Assembly: GCA_016287565.1 (NCBI GenBank)
Contig: JAEFAM010000018.1
Coordinates: 1-39,501, forward strand
Source: Clostridia bacterium
GTDB taxonomy: Bacteria > Bacillota > Clostridia > UBA1212 > UBA1255
Length of the DNA: 39,501 bases
Reading direction: 5' to 3'
Part shown: piece after piece, positions 5,107-39,501 of the stretch
How the letters are laid out: each line of letters starts with the position of its first letter
Position numbering within the stretch: the first letter of the stretch is position 1
Program-made: the position numbers and the translations under genes
Notes under the pieces: model-generated
Seen by the model: only the letters and a program-made list of their open reading frames with translations
What the model was told of the DNA's origin: nothing
Database searches by the model: none

Positions 5107-5258
5107 TCGACCGTCGATAGTTAACAGTTGGTCGTTAACAATTGATCGTAGATCGTCAACAGTTGATCGTTAACAGTTGATCGTTGATCGTCAACAGCTG
5201 ATCGTTGATCGTCAACAGCTGATCGTTGATCGTCAACAGCTGATCGTTGATCGTCAAC
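5107..5258 (-). promoter_or_regulatory. Tandem palindromic operator-like array upstream of the XRE/sigma-4 gene
   Basis: Four identical 13-bp palindromes GTTGATCGTCAAC start at 5183, 5204, 5225 and 5246, exactly 21 bp apart, which is two helical turns. Imperfect copies start at about 5127, 5148 and 5162, and a more degenerate one lies near 5107. Each is an inverted repeat GTTGA-N3-TCAAC. The array sits between the XRE/sigma-4 start codon and a weak promoter candidate, as expected for cooperative binding of a dimeric HTH regulator along one DNA face. Binding by the neighbouring regulator is inference. Confidence 0.65.
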
Positions 5259-5347: not shown

Positions 5348-5600
5348 TGAACCCTTTCCGGTTAAGTGAATGAGGCAGGGTTCAGCTAAATTCGCCCTGC
5401 GGGCGAGCTAAATTGCGCGTGAGGCGCAGCTAAATTCGGCTTCGCCGAGCTAAATTCGTGCTGACGCACGAGTGAGATTAATCCTTTGGATGAGTGATAT
5501 TGCGCTTCGCGCAGTGATATTCGGCTTCGCCGAGTGATAATCATCCTTCGGATGAGTGATGTTTGTGCTGACGCACGAGTAATATTGCGCACTGCGTGCT
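5348..5600 (+). repeat. Hairpin array, cluster 1, forward orientation (about 10 units)
   Basis: After a larger hairpin with arms TGAACCCT (5348-5355) and AGGGTTCA (5377-5384), about ten short units follow from 5385. Each unit is a near-constant 8-nt linker plus a different small hairpin. The first four linkers are GCTAAATT; the later ones are GTGATATT or close variants. Hairpins include CGCCCTGCGGGCG, CGGCTTCGCCG, CGTGCTGACGCACG, GCGCTTCGCGC and CATCCTTCGGATG. Stem sequences vary between units while the linker is kept. No coding gene is credible here. Confidence 0.85.
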
Positions 5601-5639
5601 GCGAAACACTTCCTTCGCCTGTGCCAAGGGCCTTGCGCT

Positions 5640-5972
5640 GTCTCGAAGTGAGAGATGAGTGCAAAACGCCCAGAATTTGCCTCTTAATCCGGATTTCTGG
5701 GCGTTTTCGTAAAGGCGGCGCTGCTTCAAAGCCAGAAACGAGCGCGAAACGCCCGGTTTTTGCCTCTTAACCCGGATTTCTGGGCGTTTTCATAAAGGTG
5801 GCGCTGTCTCAAAGACAGAAATGAGCGCAAAACGCCCAGAATTTACATCTTAACCCGGATTTCTGGGCGTTTTCATAAAGGTGGCGCTGTCTCAAAGCCA
5901 GAAATGAGCGAGAAACGCCCAGAATTTGCCTCTTAACCCGGATTTCTGGGCGTTTTCGTAAAAGTTGCGCTG
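5640..5972 (+). repeat. 83-bp tandem repeats, cluster 1 (four copies)
   Basis: Four copies recur with an exact 83-bp period; the ACGCC motif starts at 5666, 5749, 5832 and 5915. Each copy holds a stem of about 13 bp (AAAACGCCCAGAA against TTCTGGGCGTTTT) around an 18-nt loop with CCTCTTAA and CCGGA, then a spacer with GCGCTGTCTCAAAGCCAGAAATGAGCG. The stem followed by TTTT looks like an intrinsic terminator, repeated. The second copy carries a CCGGTT change in the left arm. The same unit occurs three times at 37580-37860. Confidence 0.9.
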
Positions 5973-6009
5973 CCTGATAGCTCAAAATGAGCTTGAGATC
6001 AAATCCGCC

Positions 6010-6180
6010 TTTGCTCGTCCGCAGGACGAATTAAGCTGAAAGCCAACGGCTTTCAATTTCGCTGCCGCAAAGCGGCAATTTCGCCGGACTCTGACACTCT
6101 TACCTGACCTGTCAGGGTTCGATTTAGCTGTGAGCGCAAGCGAACAATTTAGCTCGCGCGCAAGCGCGAATTTAGCTGAA
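6010..6180 (-). repeat. Hairpin array with AATTTAGC/AATTTCGC linkers, cluster 1
   Basis: Small hairpins are joined by AATTAAGC, AATTTCGC or AATTTAGC, the reverse complements of the GCTAAATT-type linkers seen at 5385-5460. Hairpins include CGTCCGCAGGACG, TGAAAGCCAACGGCTTTC and TGCCGCAAAGCGGC. A longer imperfect hairpin around CTGACAC...TGTCAGGGTTC lies at about 6090-6130. The array is in the opposite orientation to the first part of the cluster. No gene is visible. Confidence 0.75.
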
Positions 6181-6220
6181 CCCAGGTGCTTTCAGTTAAG
6201 GCGCCGGTGTTCGACCTCAC

Positions 6221-6452
6221 TCCGCGCAGCGGAATATCACTCATCCGAAGGATGAACATCACTCGGCCGTCAGGCTGAATATCACTGCGCCTCGCGCAAT
6301 ATCACTCGACGAAGTCGAATATCACTCATCCGAAGGATGAACATCACTCGGCCGTCAGGCCGAATATCACTGCGCCCCGCGCAATATCACTCGACGAAGT
6401 CGAATATCACTCATCCGAAGGATGAATATCACTCGCCGCAGTCGAATATCAC
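6221..6452 (-). repeat. Hairpin array, cluster 1, reverse orientation (11 units) with an 85-bp higher-order repeat
   Basis: Eleven short hairpins are separated by AATATCAC (or ACATCAC), the reverse complement of the GTGATATT linker. The unit order TCATCC.., TCGGCC.., TGCGCC.., TCGACG.. repeats as a block: the TCATCCGAAGGATG hairpin starts at 6241, 6326 and 6411, an exact 85-bp period. The array therefore grew in part by duplication of four-unit blocks. It ends 30 bp before the PBP promoter. Confidence 0.9.
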
Positions 6453-6481
6453 TCTCTAAAGGCAACAGCCGCTCCCCTCAG

Positions 6482-13905: not shown

Positions 13906-15648
13906 ATGGACAACACAGACATCAGACTTCAGTTGACCGATCCCGGCTGCGCCACGGCCACCGACGGCCTGGGACGCGTGCTCCCTACCGGAGCGGAAAC
14001 AGGGGAAAGACGCCCCGGCCGCTGCGTGGGGCTGTTCTATTTCCTGTGGAACGGAGAACATCTCCACATGGATAAAAGGCCCCTGGACATCACCAGGCTG
14101 CTCCGGGCGGATCCCAAGGCAGGCTACAGGCCCGACGATCCCGAATGGGGCAAATATTCAGTGATGCATCACTGGGGAGAACCTCTGTTCGGATATTATT
14201 ACTCCAAAGACGAGTGGGTCATGCGCCGCCACGTGGAGATGCTCACCTACGCCGATATAGATTTCCTGGTATTCGACACCACCAACGCCGTGATATACGA
14301 AGAAGCGGCCAAGATGATGCTCAGGCTGCTTTCGGAATACCGGGCAATGGGCTTCAACACTCCCAGGGCAATGTTCTACACCAACACCGAATCCGGCAGG
14401 ACTGCCCAGATGCTCTACGACCGCATCTACAGCGTGGGTTACATGCCCGACTCCTGGTTCACCGTTGACGGAAAGCCCCTGATCATCGCTAGAGAAGAAG
14501 AGTGCTCCCCCGAAGTCAGGGAGTTTTTCACCATAAAAATGTCCCAGTGGCCCAACGAACCCACCAAGCAGGGCGGCTGGCCCTGGATGGATTTCGAGAG
14601 GCCCCAGAGAGTCTTCGATAACCTCAAAGGCGAAGCAGAGATCATCAACGTTTCGGTTGCCCAGCATCCCCAGATCCACTTCGGCGACTCCGCGATGTAC
14701 GGCGAGACCGCCAACCGCGGCAGGTCTTTCCACAACGGCGCCGAGGACCGGTCGGAAGGAGCCTGGAAGTTCGGGTACAATTTCCAGGAGCAGTGGGACA
14801 GGGCGCTGGAGACGCTGCCCCCTTACGTGTTCGTGACCGGCTGGAACGAGTGGATCGCCGGGCGCTGGGGAGGCACTCCTGATAGACCCATGTCATTCGT
14901 TGACTGCGCAGATCTGGAATATTCCAGAGACGCGGAGCCTATGCGGGGCGGATATTTCGACAACTATTACATGCAATTGATCGCCAACGTGCGGAAGTAC
15001 AAAGGAGCTCCGGCGCTGGAGGTCACGCCGGAGATGCCGGGGAGCGTTGACGGCAGCGTCGATGCGGGAACGGTGGAGCGGTTCGGCCGCACTTACCTGA
15101 ACTTCCCCAAGGGTCAATACCGCCGTGATCATGACGGTTACAACACCCACTACACTGACGATTCGGGCCGCAACGCCATCGTTTGCGTAAGCGTTGCCCA
15201 CGACGTGGACAATTTGTATTTCTCTGCCGAAACCCTGGCGCCTCTGGAGAAGTACGATTACCATTCCGCCTGGATGCAGCTGTTCCTCGGCGTTAAAAAC
15301 CTCACCGACGGGTATCAGGCTCCCGGGAAGCGCTGGCATGGTTACGGCTACATGGCCGGAGGATACCAGTTTACGGACAGCCGCGCGACGCTGGAAAAGT
15401 GCGTTGAGGAGACGGGTTCGCTGGAGGCGGATACCTTCAGGCCCTGCGCCGTCATAGAGTATTCTTTCGACGAGCATCACGTGGTATACAAGGTGCCCAA
15501 GGCGGCGGTAGGCATAGGCCCCGGGGACAGGTTCGAGATAGGTTTCAAGTGGATGGACAGCCGGGAGCGGGTGAGAGGCCTCGACGACTTCTACACTTCG
15601 GGAGACGCGGCGCCCATCGGCAGATTGAATTATACATTCAAGGGATAA
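13906..15648 (+). CDS. GH99/GH71-like glycoside hydrolase-type protein, cytoplasmic form, with C-terminal CBM-like domain
   Basis: The 580-residue protein lacks a signal peptide. The N-terminal part (about 40-360) is a predicted TIM barrel of the GH99/71-like superfamily: VGLFYFLWNG, FGYYYSKDEWVMRRHVEMLTYADIDFLVFDTTN and the signature FVTGWNEWIAGRW with Glu at about 315. The C-terminal part (about 390-575) is a beta-sandwich resembling CBM9/DOMON-like modules. It is paralogous to the secreted protein at 20597-22666 over its whole length. GGAGG lies 6 nt before the ATG. No convincing promoter is seen in the 81-bp gap upstream. It is the first gene of a long same-strand run. The substrate is not determinable; mannose- or rhamnose-containing glycans are plausible from context. 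Confidence 0.8.
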   Translation: MDNTDIRLQLTDPGCATATDGLGRVLPTGAETGERRPGRCVGLFYFLWNGEHLHMDKRPLDITRLLRADPKAGYRPDDPEWGKYSVMHHWGEPLFGYYYSKDEWVMRRHVEMLTYADIDFLVFDTTNAVIYEEAAKMMLRLLSEYRAMGFNTPRAMFYTNTESGRTAQMLYDRIYSVGYMPDSWFTVDGKPLIIAREEECSPEVREFFTIKMSQWPNEPTKQGGWPWMDFERPQRVFDNLKGEAEIINVSVAQHPQIHFGDSAMYGETANRGRSFHNGAEDRSEGAWKFGYNFQEQWDRALETLPPYVFVTGWNEWIAGRWGGTPDRPMSFVDCADLEYSRDAEPMRGGYFDNYYMQLIANVRKYKGAPALEVTPEMPGSVDGSVDAGTVERFGRTYLNFPKGQYRRDHDGYNTHYTDDSGRNAIVCVSVAHDVDNLYFSAETLAPLEKYDYHSAWMQLFLGVKNLTDGYQAPGKRWHGYGYMAGGYQFTDSRATLEKCVEETGSLEADTFRPCAVIEYSFDEHHVVYKVPKAAVGIGPGDRFEIGFKWMDSRERVRGLDDFYTSGDAAPIGRLNYTFKG

Positions 15649-19170: not shown

Positions 19171-20600
19171 ACTTTTTAAACAGTATCAAACGCCGGGGAG
19201 AGCGGGCGGTCCTGCTGCTTTTAGCGGCGGCGCTGGCTGCGTTGACGGCCTTCGGAGGCTGTTCGAGGGCAGGGGACAACGGCGGCGTGACAGACGAAAA
19301 GCTCGTGGTGCCTTCGGATACAGTTGTCCTGGCAGTTAAGGAGGACCGCACTTCGAGAGAAGCCCAGAAGCGGCTGGAACAGTGCGTTGACCGGTATATA
19401 GAAGCGTTTCGCGAAGTCCATCCGGAGACAGGCGTGAAAGCGGTATATTATCCGGAGCTTCCGAAGAAATTGACGGGCATCGACTGCCTGCTGCTGGGAG
19501 CGGACGATATGCTGCTGTACGCGGCGGGAGGATTGACGGACGCGGAACCCTATTTAGGGGAGTACGGCTTCTCGGCGTCGGACCTGGTGGGAGGCGCCGA
19601 GAACGTTGCCCGCATAGATCCGGGAGAGCCTCTGCTTATGATCCCTTTCAATTACGACCATACGGTGGTGCTGGGGGACAGGCAGCTGTTCGAGGAAGCA
19701 GGCGTGGCGGTGCCGGGCGCGGACTGGACGATCGACGGCCTGGAAGAGACCGCCGAAGCGCTTACAGGCAGGCAAGGCTCAATAACTTATTCCGGGATAT
19801 ATATGCCCCATTATATGAATTACACCTGGCAATACTTCTGCAACCTTCTGGCCGGGACCTACCTCACTGACGGGCGCTTCGATTTTGGCAGCGAAGGTCC
19901 GGTCAATACCGCCGTGAAGCGTTTTTATGCTTTCTATGCCCACAACGCCGCGTACACTCCCGGCCTTTCCTCGGGCAACCGCACCTGCGTCATGAGCCTG
20001 ACTTTCGCCTCCATGCCGGGCCGCGACAATCTTTCTTTCCAGACTGAAAAAGACGCCGCCCGGAACCCAGGAAAACGTGTGGACGAGCTGCTGGCCTCGG
20101 GGAACCTGGTGCTGCTGCCCCTTCCTTCCGCCTCCGACGGCACCCGTACCGGAATGGCAAACACGGATTTTATAAAGGGGTTCGCCGTGAATTCCGGGTC
20201 GAAAAAGCAGGACATGGCCGGAAAGCTGGCTGCCTTTTGCCTCACGGAAACGGCCCAGCAGATACTTAACGGCTGCTTCGGAGGCATCCCCTCCAGCAGG
20301 GCAATGCTTCAGTCGGATTTCTGGCGAAAAGGCGTGTTCGAGGGAGCGAACGGGGACAATGCTCTTATTGGTATCGAAGAGGGCAGGCGGGACGATTTCA
20401 CCGCCGCGCTCAAGGGCGACCCGGATATCTACAACAAAAACGTGCGTATGCGCTCAGTGTTTTCCGCCGTTATGGTGAGGGAACTGAAGAGCAACAAGTC
20501 GCAGGACAAGTTCATCAAGAATCTGGGCATTTTCGCGGAGGACGCCAATAAAGTGATCGACGGGAAGATCGCGGTATATTCCAGAGAGGGGGTGGCGTGA
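19167..20600 (+). CDS. ABC-type extracellular solute-binding lipoprotein (family 1-like), orphan
   Basis: The 477-residue protein has a lipoprotein signal (FGGC, Cys32) and the general pattern of sugar-binding proteins: a KEDRTSREAQKRLEQCVDRYIEAFREVHPE helix, a PFNYDHTVVLGDRQLFEEAGVAVPG segment and a TDFIKGFAVNSGSKKQDMAGKLAAF segment in which the last helix precedes a Gly-rich FGGIPSSR loop. No permease or ATPase gene is adjacent. It may feed a distant permease or act as a surface glycan sensor or capture protein. It is translationally coupled to the GH78 gene upstream by ATGA and to the GH99-like gene downstream. Confidence 0.75.
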   Translation: MNFLNSIKRRGERAVLLLLAAALAALTAFGGCSRAGDNGGVTDEKLVVPSDTVVLAVKEDRTSREAQKRLEQCVDRYIEAFREVHPETGVKAVYYPELPKKLTGIDCLLLGADDMLLYAAGGLTDAEPYLGEYGFSASDLVGGAENVARIDPGEPLLMIPFNYDHTVVLGDRQLFEEAGVAVPGADWTIDGLEETAEALTGRQGSITYSGIYMPHYMNYTWQYFCNLLAGTYLTDGRFDFGSEGPVNTAVKRFYAFYAHNAAYTPGLSSGNRTCVMSLTFASMPGRDNLSFQTEKDAARNPGKRVDELLASGNLVLLPLPSASDGTRTGMANTDFIKGFAVNSGSKKQDMAGKLAAFCLTETAQQILNGCFGGIPSSRAMLQSDFWRKGVFEGANGDNALIGIEEGRRDDFTAALKGDPDIYNKNVRMRSVFSAVMVRELKSNKSQDKFIKNLGIFAEDANKVIDGKIAVYSREGVA

Positions 20601-22666
20601 TGGGAGCGAAGCACGCGTCGAAACACGCGGCTGACGGCGCGGTCAGGACCGCGCTGTGCCTGGCGATCGCATTGATGCTGGCCCTCTCGTTATTGACCCC
20701 CGCCTTTGCAGACGGAGACGGAAGCGGCGGAAAAACCGATACAGGTGCGACGGATATATTGTCCGACACCTGGGTGGGTTCCGACGGAATTGGCAGATCT
20801 TTCCCCACGCAGGCGGAGACCGGCGCCCCGAGGGCCGGCAAATACGTGGGCATCTTCTACTTCCTTTTTTTGTCTTCCGAGAGCACGACCATCTGGGACA
20901 CTACGCAGGTTTACCTGGACGGCGGCGTGGAGGCGGTCTGGGAGATGGAGCCCCTGGACGGATTCCACTGCTGGGCCAGGCCTTATTTCGGATATTACCG
21001 TACCGACCTGGACGAATGGATATACAGGAAGCACGCCCAGCTGCTCACGGACGCCGGGATCGACTTCGTGTTCCTTGACACCACCAACCACGGAGGCCTT
21101 TTCGAGAAATGCTGGACGCTGCTTTTGAAGACCTGGAGAAAGGTCCGGGACGAAGGGGGCAATACTCCCCAGGTGGTATTCCACAACGGGGACAGCGCCG
21201 ATACCATGGCGGAACACGTGGCAATACAGTATAAAAAAGCATATTCGAACCCGGATTACGCAGATCTGTGGTTCTACTGGGAGGGAAAACCGCTCATCCT
21301 GGGCAACCCCGGGAAGCTCGGCAGCGAGTACGTAGACTATTTCACCATCAGAAGGTCCTGGGCGTTCAACGACTTCACCGGCGACGGCATACTGCGCTGG
21401 CCCTGGATCGCGGAATATCCACAGGCGCCCGGCAGGAACGCCGAGGGAGAGGTGGAGCAGATCGTTGTCAGCGCCGGATTCCACTCCAATTCGTCCAGAG
21501 GGCGCAGCTATCACGACGGTCAGCAACCCTCCAGGGGCGTGGGAGATTTCGGATACGGCCTTTCCACCAGCGGCGACGGACTGGCGTTCCAGGAGCAGTG
21601 GAGCAGGGTCTTCGAGATCGATCCTCCGCTGGTCATGATCACAGGCTGGAACGAGTTCACGTTCGGCCGCTGGACCGACGCGGGACCGGGGCAGATCATC
21701 TCCGACAGCTACCAGATAATCACAGGAGACTGGCAGTTCAACAGCAACTACGTTGACGCGTTCAGCGCTGAATTCAGCAGGGACGTGGAGCCCATTTCGC
21801 AGCTGTTCCGGGACAATTACTATTACCAGATGGTGGACAATATCCGCCGCTTCAAGGGCGTCAGGAGCGTTGACAGGGGCACGGGCAGCGTGGATATCGA
21901 TATGGACGGAGACTTCTCCGAGTTCGACGGCATCGGGCCGGAGTACCTGGACACTGTGGGCGACACGGCCTGGCGGTCCGGCAGGCTGATCAGCGGCGAA
22001 AAGGTCAAAAACGAGAGCGGCCGCAACGACATCGTCCGGGTGAAAGTATCGAAGACCGGCGAATATACATATTTCCTGGCGGAATGTGCGTCGCCCGTGG
22101 TCACGGCGGAAGGCACCGGAAACTGGATGAATCTGTATATCGACAGCGACCGGTATTATTACACCGGCTGGGAGGGTTACGACTTCGTCATTGGAAGGGC
22201 CCTGGAAAACGGCAGGCTGTCGGTGGAAGAATTTGCGAATAACGAATGGATGGGGTATAATAAAGGTTGGGCCGATTTTGCCCTCCGCGGCAACAAGCTG
22301 GTCATCCGGGTGGAGAATTCCCTGATAGGCATCGACGCCCGGGACAATTTCGATTTTAAATGGGCCGATAATTCCACCGTCTCCGGCGAGGTGATGGAAT
22401 TTATGGACCTGGGCGACGCGGCTCCCAACTCCCGGTTCAATTACCGGTATGAAAAAGAAGGCGGCGTGATCTCCTCAGAGATCAGGCCCGGCGCTTCCGT
22501 AAAGCCGGAAGGACAGCCCGGAGGCCAAAAGAAGAGTGGCGCGAAAACGGCTGCGGTCATTGCCGTTTTGCTGACGACCGTACTGCTGGCGGCAGCGGCG
22601 GTGTTCGTTGTGGCCGCTAAGAAGAAAAACAAAAACGAAAGGGATGAAGGGAATGAAAAAAAGTAA
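20597..22666 (+). CDS. Secreted, membrane-anchored GH99/GH71-like protein with C-terminal CBM-like domain
   Basis: This is the extracellular paralogue of the 13906-15648 product. Of 689 residues, about 1-38 form a signal peptide (ending TPAFADG). The catalytic-type barrel shows YVGIFYFLF, FGYYRTDLDEWIYRKHAQLL, IDFVFLDTTN and MITGWNEFTFGRW. The C-terminal beta-sandwich ends with LGDAAPNSRFNYRYE, matching the paralogue's GDAAPIGRLNYTF. A transmembrane helix (about 655-675) and a Lys-rich tail anchor it at the C-terminus. The GTG at 20597 or the ATG at 20600 may start it; both overlap the stop of the solute-binding protein gene. Its 3' end overlaps the next gene's start. Confidence 0.85.
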   Translation: MMGAKHASKHAADGAVRTALCLAIALMLALSLLTPAFADGDGSGGKTDTGATDILSDTWVGSDGIGRSFPTQAETGAPRAGKYVGIFYFLFLSSESTTIWDTTQVYLDGGVEAVWEMEPLDGFHCWARPYFGYYRTDLDEWIYRKHAQLLTDAGIDFVFLDTTNHGGLFEKCWTLLLKTWRKVRDEGGNTPQVVFHNGDSADTMAEHVAIQYKKAYSNPDYADLWFYWEGKPLILGNPGKLGSEYVDYFTIRRSWAFNDFTGDGILRWPWIAEYPQAPGRNAEGEVEQIVVSAGFHSNSSRGRSYHDGQQPSRGVGDFGYGLSTSGDGLAFQEQWSRVFEIDPPLVMITGWNEFTFGRWTDAGPGQIISDSYQIITGDWQFNSNYVDAFSAEFSRDVEPISQLFRDNYYYQMVDNIRRFKGVRSVDRGTGSVDIDMDGDFSEFDGIGPEYLDTVGDTAWRSGRLISGEKVKNESGRNDIVRVKVSKTGEYTYFLAECASPVVTAEGTGNWMNLYIDSDRYYYTGWEGYDFVIGRALENGRLSVEEFANNEWMGYNKGWADFALRGNKLVIRVENSLIGIDARDNFDFKWADNSTVSGEVMEFMDLGDAAPNSRFNYRYEKEGGVISSEIRPGASVKPEGQPGGQKKSGAKTAAVIAVLLTTVLLAAAAVFVVAAKKKNKNERDEGNEKK

Positions 22667-37045: not shown

Positions 37046-37074
37046 ATTATATCACCGATTGTTAGCACTGTCAA
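37046..37074 (-). promoter_or_regulatory. sigma-A promoter of the hsp20 gene
   Basis: On the minus strand, TTGACA (37069-37074) and TATAAT (37046-37051) are separated by exactly 17 bp; both hexamers match consensus perfectly. The CIRCE operator covers the -35 box. Confidence 0.9.
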
Positions 37075-37088
37075 TAGGTGAGTGCTAA
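37062..37088 (-). promoter_or_regulatory. CIRCE operator (HrcA binding site)
   Basis: TTAGCACTG-N9-GAGTGCTAA matches the CIRCE consensus TTAGCACTC-N9-GAGTGCTAA in 17 of 18 arm positions (37062-37070, 37080-37088). HrcA bound here would block the overlapping hsp20 promoter. Confidence 0.92.
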
Positions 37089-37179
37089 AAATTTTAAAAA
37101 ATTTATATAAAATTTTCTTCCGCTTATGCGTCAACGCGGTCGGAAGGTGATGTGCGGGGCAATCGTTGTGGTCCGCACG

Positions 37180-37542
37180 GTGATATTCGCACTGATGTGC
37201 GAGTGATATTCGTGCTGCGCGCAGTGATATTTGCCCTGTGGGCAAGTGATATTCACCCTTTGGGTGAGTGATATTCCGCTTCGCGCAGTGATGTTCGCCT
37301 GGCGGCGAGTGATATTGCGCTTCGCGCAGTGATATTCGTGCTGACGCACGAGTGATATTTGCCCTGCGGGCAAGTGATATTCACCCTTTGGGTGAGTGAT
37401 GTTCCGCTGCGCGGAGTGATGTTCGCCTGGCGGCGAGTGATATTGCGCTTCGCGCAGTGATGTTCGCCTGGCGGCGAGTGATATTGCGCTGCGCGCAGTG
37501 ATATTCGTGCTGACGCACGAGTGATATTGTGCGCGATGCGGC
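37180..37542 (+). repeat. Hairpin array, cluster 2, forward orientation (17 units)
   Basis: About 17 units consist of the linker GTGATATT or GTGATGTT plus a variable hairpin of 11-15 nt, e.g. CGCACTGATGTGCG, TGCCCTGTGGGCA, CACCCTTTGGGTG, CGCCTGGCGGCG, GCGCTTCGCGC, CGTGCTGACGCACG. The order CGTGC, TGCCC, CACCC, CCGC, CGCC, GCGC occurs twice, about 126 bp apart (from 37203 and 37329), so blocks of six units were duplicated. Stems tend to stay paired although their sequences differ, e.g. CCGCTGCGCGG beside CCGCTTCGCGC. No credible gene lies here. Confidence 0.9.
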
Positions 37543-37579
37543 AACTAAACGCTTTCTTCGCTTGTACCGGGGACCTTGC

Positions 37580-37860
37580 GCTGTCTCGAAGGCAGAAAGG
37601 AGTGCAAAACGCCCAGATTTTACCTCTTACCCCGGATTTCTGGGCGTTTTCGTAAAGGTTGCGCTGTCTCGAAGGCAAAAAAGAACGAGAAACGCCCTGA
37701 TTTTACCTCTTGCCCTGGATTTCTGGGCGTTTTCGTGAAGGTAGCGCTGTCTCAAAGCCAAAAATGAGCGCGAAACGCCCTGATTTTACCTCTTGGCCTG
37801 GATTTCTGGGCGTTTTCATAAAGGTTGCGCTTTCTGGAAGGTAAAAATGAGTGCGAAACG
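37580..37860 (+). repeat. 83-bp tandem repeats, cluster 2 (three copies plus a partial)
   Basis: Copies start (ACGCC motif) at 37609, 37692 and 37775, an exact 83-bp period, in the same orientation as at 5640-5972. The stem and loop are shared, with drift in the left arm (AAACGCCCTGA in copies two and three). The connector before them (CCTTGCGCTGTCTCGAAGG) also matches the one at about 5630-5650. A truncated unit follows to about 37860. Confidence 0.88.
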
Positions 37861-37877
37861 AAAATGATCCACCTTCA

Positions 37878-38158
37878 CTCGGCACCGCCGAATATCACTG
37901 AACCCTGACACTGTCGCTATAATGTCAGGGTTCAATATCATTCGCCGCCAGGCGACCATCTCTCGCACGTCAGTGCGAATATCACTGCGCGTCCCGCGCA
38001 ATATCACTCGTGCGTCAGCACGAATATCACTGTGCACAGCACAATATCACTTGCGCGCCAGCGCAAATTTAGCTGCGCGCCCCGCGCACAATTTCGCTCG
38101 TCCGCCGGGACGAATTTAGCCGAAACCTGACGCTCTCGTCTGATCTGTCAGGTTTCGA
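37878..38158 (-). repeat. Hairpin array, cluster 2, reverse orientation, ending in the stop of the GT8/PlsC gene
   Basis: About ten hairpins are joined by AATATCAC and, towards the end, by AATTTAGC and AATTTCGC. One member is a larger perfect hairpin with 12-nt arms TGAACCCTGACA (37899-37910) / TGTCAGGGTTCA (37923-37934). The array ends with CGAAACCTGAC...GTCAGGTTTCG (about 38120-38158); the minus-strand stop codon of the acyltransferase gene lies inside that stem. Confidence 0.85.
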
Positions 38159-39501
38159 TCGCCTTCACCCCGTCATACTCCACCTTGCCGGTCTCGGTGA
38201 TGTACTCCAGGGGCAGCCCGTATTCGCGCTCGTAGATCTCCTTCCAGATCTCGTAGTTCGTTGACATCAGGCGGCGCACGTTCTCCTTTTCGGACAATGC
38301 CGGGTCGGGAAGGATGGGCTCGGAGACGATCACCGTGTACTCCTGCACCGCGAAGCCGTCGTCGTCAAGGTACCCTGAATCCCGCATCACTATAAAGCAG
38401 GGGAGCACGGGGACGTTGTTGCGGGCCGCGAACGTGAACGCGCCTCTCTTGAACGGCCTGGGCTTTCTGTAATTCCACCACATTGCCTGCTCGGGGTAGA
38501 TCAGGACAAAATGACCGTCCTGCAGTATCTGGTCCGTGGATTTTATAAACTTCTTCAGCGTGTCCTTGTTCGACGACAGGGGCAGCGTGTGGCAATGCCG
38601 CATCAGGAAGCCGTAGAAGCCGGGGAAGGAAGTGTAGTTGCCCTCGCGGATGACGCGGTAGAAAGTGCGCTTGGGCTGTTCAGCCGCCTCGTATACCATC
38701 TGGATCGCGAAGCTGTCCAGGGCGTTGAAGTGGTTGCAGGTGATGATCGCGCCGGAGGAGAGGTTCTGGAAATTCTCTATGCCGCGGATCTCCTTCAGTA
38801 TGAACTTGTTCTCCTTCGTGAGCCGGTTGATGAACCGCCGGGCAAACATGAACGCCGCCTTGGTCTGCATCTTCTGGATGATGTTGCTGCGGTAATATTC
38901 GATCTCGTCGGGCATAAGGACTCTTGACGGAGGATCCGACTCCACGTCCTCGAAGAAATTGCCGCGGCGCTCGAAATCTTCTATCTTCTGAACGATCTCC
39001 ACCCGGTCAAGCGACCTGGACTGGTTGACTACTTCTATAAAATTGTTCTCTTTTTCCGTCTCGATACGCGCCGTTTCCAAAAGTTTTTCGCCTCCTGCCT
39101 TGTCCCTCTCCCGCTGCTCGTCGGTATATGCCGCCTGGTTCGCCCTGAGTTCATCGTACACTTCCGTCCAGGCAGCGTATTTCCAGAATATGTCTCCGTG
39201 CTTGCAGTCCGGGTAGTTCCAGGGCTTACTGAACAGGCAGTAGTGGATTATCTTGGCCTCTTCGATAGGGAAGGGAATGTTGTCCAGCACTTCCGTGTTC
39301 CAGCGCTGGTTCAGCCAGTAGACGTGGTCCTTGCAGATGACGTTCAGGTAGTCCTCGTCCTGGGTCACCACGAAATTGTACAGCTGCAGATAGTGTATGA
39401 ACTTGTCCAGGATGAACCGCATCCTGAATTCTTCACGATTGATCAGCACTATGCCTGCGTTGAAGAAATTGTACCGGGAGATGCCGAGCGCTTTCTCCAC
39501 G
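38148..39501 (-). CDS. Fusion of GT8-family glycosyltransferase (C-terminal part) and PlsC-type acyltransferase; 5' end outside window
   Basis: The open frame runs to the right window edge; the first GTG at 39500 is probably internal. The N-terminal 120 visible residues match the C-terminal half of GT8 enzymes: NFFNAGIVLINREEFR, TQDEDYLNVIC and KIIHYCLFSKPWNY. A charged linker (about 125-200) leads to a PlsC/LPLAT domain with CNHFNALDSFA (the NHX4D motif, about 254-264), and YPEQAMWW (about 333-340) for the later block. It would combine sugar transfer with acylation of a glycerophosphate- or glycolipid-type acceptor at the inner membrane face. The stop codon lies within a hairpin of the adjoining repeat array. 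Confidence 0.88.
   Translation of the reverse strand, partial: VEKALGISRYNFFNAGIVLINREEFRMRFILDKFIHYLQLYNFVVTQDEDYLNVICKDHVYWLNQRWNTEVLDNIPFPIEEAKIIHYCLFSKPWNYPDCKHGDIFWKYAAWTEVYDELRANQAAYTDEQRERDKAGGEKLLETARIETEKENNFIEVVNQSRSLDRVEIVQKIEDFERRGNFFEDVESDPPSRVLMPDEIEYYRSNIIQKMQTKAAFMFARRFINRLTKENKFILKEIRGIENFQNLSSGAIITCNHFNALDSFAIQMVYEAAEQPKRTFYRVIREGNYTSFPGFYGFLMRHCHTLPLSSNKDTLKKFIKSTDQILQDGHFVLIYPEQAMWWNYRKPRPFKRGAFTFAARNNVPVLPCFIVMRDSGYLDDDGFAVQEYTVIVSEPILPDPALSEKENVRRLMSTNYEIWKEIYEREYGLPLEYITETGKVEYDGVKAIET

Follow-up and report, generated by a model that had tools for sequence, protein, structure and literature searches.

The two hairpin-rich clusters of the window (the whole stretch of 39,501 nucleotides that was analysed) are best explained, with moderate confidence, as enlarged copies of a dispersed, non-autonomous palindromic DNA repeat that resembles REPINs, folds as single-stranded DNA, grows in tandem and is copied in trans. 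The basic form of the repeat would have two arms of three to four mini-hairpins, separated by 9-bp linkers and inverted around a short centre. When the DNA is single-stranded, the strand reading AATATCACT outward would fold the units into very stable mini-hairpins, each with a closing C-G pair and a GNA or GNNA loop. A trans-acting enzyme would recognise the linker and the hairpin and copy the element to other intergenic places, similar to the presumed action of TnpA-REP on REPINs. The arms in this lineage would then have been lengthened by local tandem duplication, and the 83-bp repeat, which has a similar design (a conserved part and a hairpin), would occupy the centre of many copies. The architecture, the copy number, the variable but paired stems, the polarity of loops and mismatches, the covariation, the dispersal in a relative and the variation between sites are direct observations. 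We infer that there is an intermediate of single-stranded DNA and an enzyme that acts in trans.

Layout of the clusters and their distribution in the source genome

Positions 37179-38158 make up cluster 2, in which a forward array, a connector, an 83-bp tandem repeat and a reverse array follow one another. The parts of cluster 1 (5348-6453) have the same order and orientation, and the coordinates of the arrays, tandem repeats and linkers bear out the shared three-part layout described in the earlier note. The forward arm of cluster 2 (37179-37541, plus strand) contains 17 linkers (AGTGATATT, AGTGATGTT) with mini-hairpins between them and three matches to the Rfam family Gut-1. A connector sequence (37542-37575, no strand assigned) leads from this arm to the 83-bp tandem repeat (37576-37860, plus strand; 3.4 copies with 87% matches), each unit of which consists of a conserved part of ~30 bp and a hairpin (AAACGCCC..GGGCGTTT). 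The reverse arm (37891-38121, minus strand; one Gut-1 match) has the linker AATATCACT, then AATTTAGCT/AATTTCGCT, again with mini-hairpins, and includes a longer hairpin at 37900-37933 (GAACCCTGACA..TGTCAGGGTTC, inverted repeat I18). The array is closed by a longer terminal hairpin (38121-38157, CGAAACCTGAC..GTCAGGTTTCG), which reaches into the last codons, at the 3' end, of the neighbouring ORF (38148-39500); the homology to congeners starts by this hairpin, at ~38160. In cluster 1, the forward arm of linkers and hairpins (5384-5586, plus strand) is followed by 4.3 copies of the 83-bp repeat (5635-5992, plus strand) and by a reverse arm (6055-6453, minus strand), in which an 85-bp block of four hairpins is repeated 2.6 times with 94% matches. 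Near-identical tandem blocks of this kind occur in the arrays, another example being 128 bp repeated 2.4 times (90%).

In the repeated unit, a 9-bp linker (AGTGATATT, AGCTAAATT or close variants) is followed by a short hairpin, 11-14 nt long and in most cases perfect, and the two linker types are used at different places in the clusters. ATATCACT occurs 30 times in the window versus 0.54 times expected from dinucleotide shuffles. The hairpin sequences of the two clusters, previously described as different, are only partly so, since both contain stems such as CGTGC-TGAC-GCACG and GCGC-TTC-GCGC. Another tandem array, with units of ~7 bp and 21 bp (GTTGATCGTCAACAGCTGATC), lies separately at 5112-5258, between an HTH gene and cluster 1. 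At 37046-37090, upstream of a small heat-shock gene, a CIRCE-like operator (TTAGCACTG..GAGTGCTAA) accompanies a sigma-70-type promoter with perfect boxes (TTGACA and TATAAT, 17 nt apart); both are largely conserved in congeners. Elsewhere in the window, the ORFs 13906-15648 and 20597-22666 look alike by eye and share, for example, FGYYxxDxxEWxxRxHxxxLTxAxIDFxFxDTTN.

The genome-wide count proposed in the earlier note was carried out on the source genome (a 2.65 Mb draft of 143 contigs, 96% complete), from which 40 regions were fetched for cluster analysis. Gut-1 matches number 95 there. For the 83-bp unit, BLAST found 42 matches, and an iterated profile, run over the fetched loci, found 71 copies. 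The linker recurs at ~40 places. Seventeen clusters have two arms, the forward one coming first in every case, and nine clusters have the full three-part layout. Around the 83-bp arrays, the left linkers are forward in 102 cases versus 0 and the right linkers are reverse in 121 versus 0. Thus, the architecture is real and directional. The 83-bp arrays themselves have either orientation and sit only on the inner side of the arms. Gut-1 arms lie within 700 bp of 13 of the 19 83-bp arrays, with both arms present at nine; the other six stand apart from Gut-1 arms, and the 83-bp repeat is absent from many Gut-1 clusters. The element is modular, which refines the earlier reading of one compound element. 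The two clusters of the window are not one duplication, because there are nine full clusters with linkers running all one way and different flanking genes. These results support the proposal of a defined genomic element and dispose of the alternative, named with it, of a single recent segmental duplication found nowhere else.

The arrays occupy intergenic space and often start within ~25 bp past a stop codon. The flanking genes, whose orientation was estimated by a simple codon score, occur in all orientations, divergent pairs included, which rules out a 3'-UTR or 5'-UTR element. No near-identical dispersed copies were seen in the source genome. A 2.2-kb gap on contig 96 was considered as an autonomous copy, in which the arms would enclose a gene, but the gene there is an ordinary serpin-like one and the idea was rejected. 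Some Gut-1 clusters (L080, L087, L091 and L229) have REP-like palindromes with GGGGGACAGGT / ACCTGTCCCC in their vicinity, and the congener G006 has a similar GGGGGACAGACCCC; the three Y1_Tnp genes of the source genome may belong to these palindromes.

Gut-1 assignment and the folding strand of the hairpin units

The hairpin units are already catalogued in Rfam as Gut-1 (RF01706): eight segments of the window, four per cluster, score 55.9-70.1 bits, and the family has a gathering score of 50 bits. The original description of Gut-1, in 2010, presented a likely non-coding RNA that occurred in human-gut DNA only, and it gave no genomic context (PMC2864571). No other paper in the literature search names the accession RF01706.

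The arms are perfect in 265 of the 350 units of the source genome and comprise 37 different sequences; a C-G pair closes the hairpin in 257 units. The loops on the strand opposite to the Rfam model are mainly GAA, GCA, GCCA and GTCA. GNNA loops behave like GNA loops in DNA. Counted over distinct units of the source genome, GNA or GNNA loops are found on the AATATCACT strand in 60 of 105 versus 3 on the other strand; among the matches listed from other Clostridia, the numbers are 115 of 214 versus 0. Hairpins outside the arrays at the same loci have such loops in 2 of 23 cases in the source genome and in 24 of 227 among the matches listed from other Clostridia. GNA triloops give extraordinarily stable DNA minihairpins, according to Yoshizawa 1997 as cited in PMC6479982. 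Inspection of the strand modelled by Rfam for an RNA-like signature, that is, G.U tolerance and RNA-stable loops, showed neither, the loops there being TNC/TNNC. UNCG tetraloops, considered as a sign of RNA, were likewise rejected on counting.

A transition in a stem leaves either G.T or A.C, and an RNA made from the Rfam strand should tolerate G.T. Single stem mismatches on that strand comprise 13 G.T and 19 A.C in the units of the source genome, and 12 G.T and 33 A.C among the matches listed from other Clostridia (p 0.002, a value that overstates independence, as the units are related by descent). Neither set shows an enrichment of G.T on the Rfam strand. The loop and the mismatch tests both indicate that the strand which folds is the one reading AATATCACT away from the centre. 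However, they do not fully separate DNA from RNA of this strand: the excess of G.T on the AATATCACT strand and the many GNRA loops elsewhere (27 GNYA versus 37 GNRA among the matches listed from other Clostridia) also fit an RNA. In the source genome, GNYA loops outnumber GNRA loops (19 versus 8), a poor fit to RNA. The DNA reading is preferred because of these GNYA loops and because of the symmetry of the arms, each of which favours its outward strand. ViennaRNA places the favoured strand ahead by only ~0.1 kcal/mol, a small difference because its parameters hold little loop bonus.

Compact elements in other Clostridia and variation at orthologous sites

A pattern scan of reference genomes found at least 110 loci, and the listed ones belong to uncultured Clostridia, mostly from ruminant hindgut. 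The element there has a compact form of ~150-200 bp in many copies, with about four linkers, a centre of 36 nt and again about four linkers, and its hairpins have characteristic arms in a fixed order. Among the matches listed, the order is plus then minus at 79 compact loci and minus then plus at one. A base of the outer linker covaries with one in the centre (A-T 23, C-G 13 and T-A 10 of 48). The compact element often adjoins a terminator hairpin. At one locus (L292, genome G011), it is seemingly inserted between the halves of a terminator-like palindrome (AAAAACAGGGACGGGC..GCCCGTCCCTGTTTTT). A tRNA-linked insertion was rejected, as only some compact elements adjoin tRNA genes. A phage or plasmid origin was also rejected, with five pattern matches in 2.9 million viral contigs and no plasmid match of the 83-bp region; five contigs of the viral collection (L308-L312) carry a Gut-1-type array and may be prophage borders.

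The numbers of Gut-1 matches in eight carrier genomes range from 2 to 43. One of these relatives, G014, has 15 copies of a 113-bp core that differ by 1.1 mismatches on average and lie in unrelated flanks. Thus, the sequence disperses. Many of these copies are located at contig ends, as expected of recent repeats; they lie inside larger mosaic repeats and have possible short terminal repeats with inconsistent ends. G011 also holds several near-identical copies, the one at L292 among them. In the order to which the source genome belongs, 5 of 31 genomes are above the strict threshold, and the distribution is therefore patchy.

In six congeners, no Gut-1 or 83-bp matches were obtained at the thresholds used. 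The neighbouring proteins, where found, are 74-88% identical in the congeners, and the gaps between them were compared at two sites in these congeneric species. The gap at site 1 is 149 bp in G002 versus 1,415 bp in the source genome, and the gap at site 2 is 122 bp in G002, 124 bp in G005 and 248 bp in G001 versus ~1,050 bp. Site 2 of G003 (L233:1100-2960) has other DNA, a 1.8-kb gap in which a long open gene replaces the cluster. Site 2 of G004 holds an array of related stems with AGTGAGATT as linker; beside it lies an 84-bp tandem repeat, which has ~30 bp in common with the 83-bp unit and a different hairpin. The G004 array is therefore a diverged relative whose linker and hairpin drifted as sets, so that part of the variation between sites reflects old divergence or loss rather than fresh insertion. 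At site 1 of G001 (L228:2700-3210), arrays of the heptamer AAGTGGC on the left and of its reverse complement on the right surround hairpin repeats of the GGCCGTA type, giving the layout of the clusters without sequence identity. A hairpin-chain search for new arrays in ~490 kb of four congeners gave two convincing cases, both in G004. At the two orthologous sites, the element is thus missing in some congeners, and diverged or analogous arrays are present in others.

Alternative explanations and relation to known systems

One alternative is that the clusters are intergenic insulators, in which transcript hairpins or cruciforms, together with terminator-like central repeats, end transcription from two sides or absorb supercoiling. 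This is rather unlikely as the main explanation. The filling of intergenic space close to stop codons and the terminator hairpins beside the compact elements are consistent with it, as is the hairpin of the 83-bp unit, which is kept in 63 to 71 of the 71 units per pair with compensatory changes. The tandem repeat region also holds five of the six terminator-like matches where 2.4 are expected, but these are weak consensus hits. Divergent genes deliver no incoming transcript, yet the arrays lie between genes of all orientations; moreover, the 83-bp repeats and the arms occur separately, and some congeners lack a cluster at the orthologous sites. As arrays fill gene gaps in all orientations, an insulating effect is possible. 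The tandem blocks of 90-94% identity, the inverted heptamer arrays of unrelated sequence in G001 and the set-wise drift of the linker in G004 could alternatively mean that the clusters are a by-product of replication, with slippage copying the units and template switching repairing imperfect palindromes, and with neither mobility nor function. This is unlikely, since it leaves unexplained how one linker comes to lie at ~40 places of one genome, why a compact layout is fixed across many Clostridia and how near-identical copies arise in unrelated flanks.

That Gut-1 is a small structured non-coding RNA, made from the strand of the AGTGATATT linker and encoded by many gene copies, would agree with the curated score exceeded by eight window segments, with the grouping of Gut-1 among likely non-coding RNAs by the 2010 authors (PMC2864571) and with stems that vary while pairing is kept. 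However, the loops and mismatches favour the opposite strand, and 95 matches in the source genome, up to 17 consecutive linkers and always inverted arms speak against such a gene. Predicted sigma-70-type promoters near cluster 2 are also close to chance, with 2 found versus 1.4 in shuffled sequence; the arrays contain neither of them, as the two are located in the hsp20 promoter region. This reading is very unlikely. Still less probable is that a RAYT (Y1) transposase mobilises the arrays as a true REPIN/BIME family, although inverted palindromic extragenic pairs and tandem clusters are as described for these families (PMC3116915; PMC8266576), with 17 of 17 pairs inverted in the source genome and 79 versus 1 among the matches listed, and although the source genome has three Y1_Tnp genes. 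REPs are defined by a conserved tag, GTAG or CGTC, at the foot of their palindrome (PMC3733652, PMC8266576), whereas the units carry neither, the conserved linker being AGTGATATT or AGCTAAATT. No Y1_Tnp gene in the fetched loci is flanked by an array. Four genomes with 14-43 Gut-1 matches (G009, G011, G013 and G014) have zero Y1_Tnp matches, and Y1_Tnp genes are present in congeners without canonical Gut-1. Near-identical dispersed copies, a further mark of REPINs, occur in the relative G014 and were not seen in the source genome. A RAYT is thus unlikely as the copying enzyme; the search for this enzyme gave no candidate, the Y1 transposases being without linkage to the arrays.

The preferred reading, a dispersed repeat that folds as single-stranded DNA, could be extended to a new class of mobile DNA. 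Such a class would consist of inverted arrays of variable mini-hairpins with a conserved linker between them, recognised as single-stranded DNA by structure and linker instead of by stem sequence and copied by a non-RAYT enzyme, with the linker drifting as part of a set between species and Gut-1 as a misread fragment. We regard this extension as tentative and on the whole doubtful. A structure kept while its sequence drifts, with loops of the DNA type, would mean that single-stranded DNA is what selection or copying acts on. The bacteria concerned form a common group in the gut, and one has to ask which enzyme handles the structure.

Compared with known systems, the arrays share with REPINs and BIMEs (PMC3116915, PMC8266576) an extragenic, palindromic and dispersed nature, inverted pairs, tandem clusters and, probably, action as single-stranded DNA. 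They differ in having several mini-hairpins per arm, a conserved linker with variable stems instead of the conserved REP stem, and no linked RAYT. MITEs and foldback elements are likewise short, non-coding and multi-copy with an inverted layout; in contrast, the arms here are hairpin arrays, with no terminal inverted repeats with a target-site duplication shown and no parent transposon identified. A CRISPR array is ruled out, as the sequences between the linkers are palindromes that recur between loci rather than unique non-palindromic spacers. Cyanobacteria have short tandemly repeated heptamers in intergenic tandem arrays. The present arrays are similar in being tandem and intergenic, with a heptamer version at the orthologous site in G001, but their units are hairpins of 20-23 bp. 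The closest catalogued relative is Gut-1 itself (RF01706, PMC2864571), which has linkers and hairpins as in the window arrays. The Rfam model, however, covers a single strand over 77 nt and describes an RNA of the human gut, whereas the units here belong to dispersed inverted arrays, found in Clostridia of the ruminant gut and in others, and the signals of folding lie on the strand opposite. The Gut-1 family thereby gains a genomic context, and the evidence suggests that it represents a dispersed repeat of DNA, folding on the strand that Rfam does not model.
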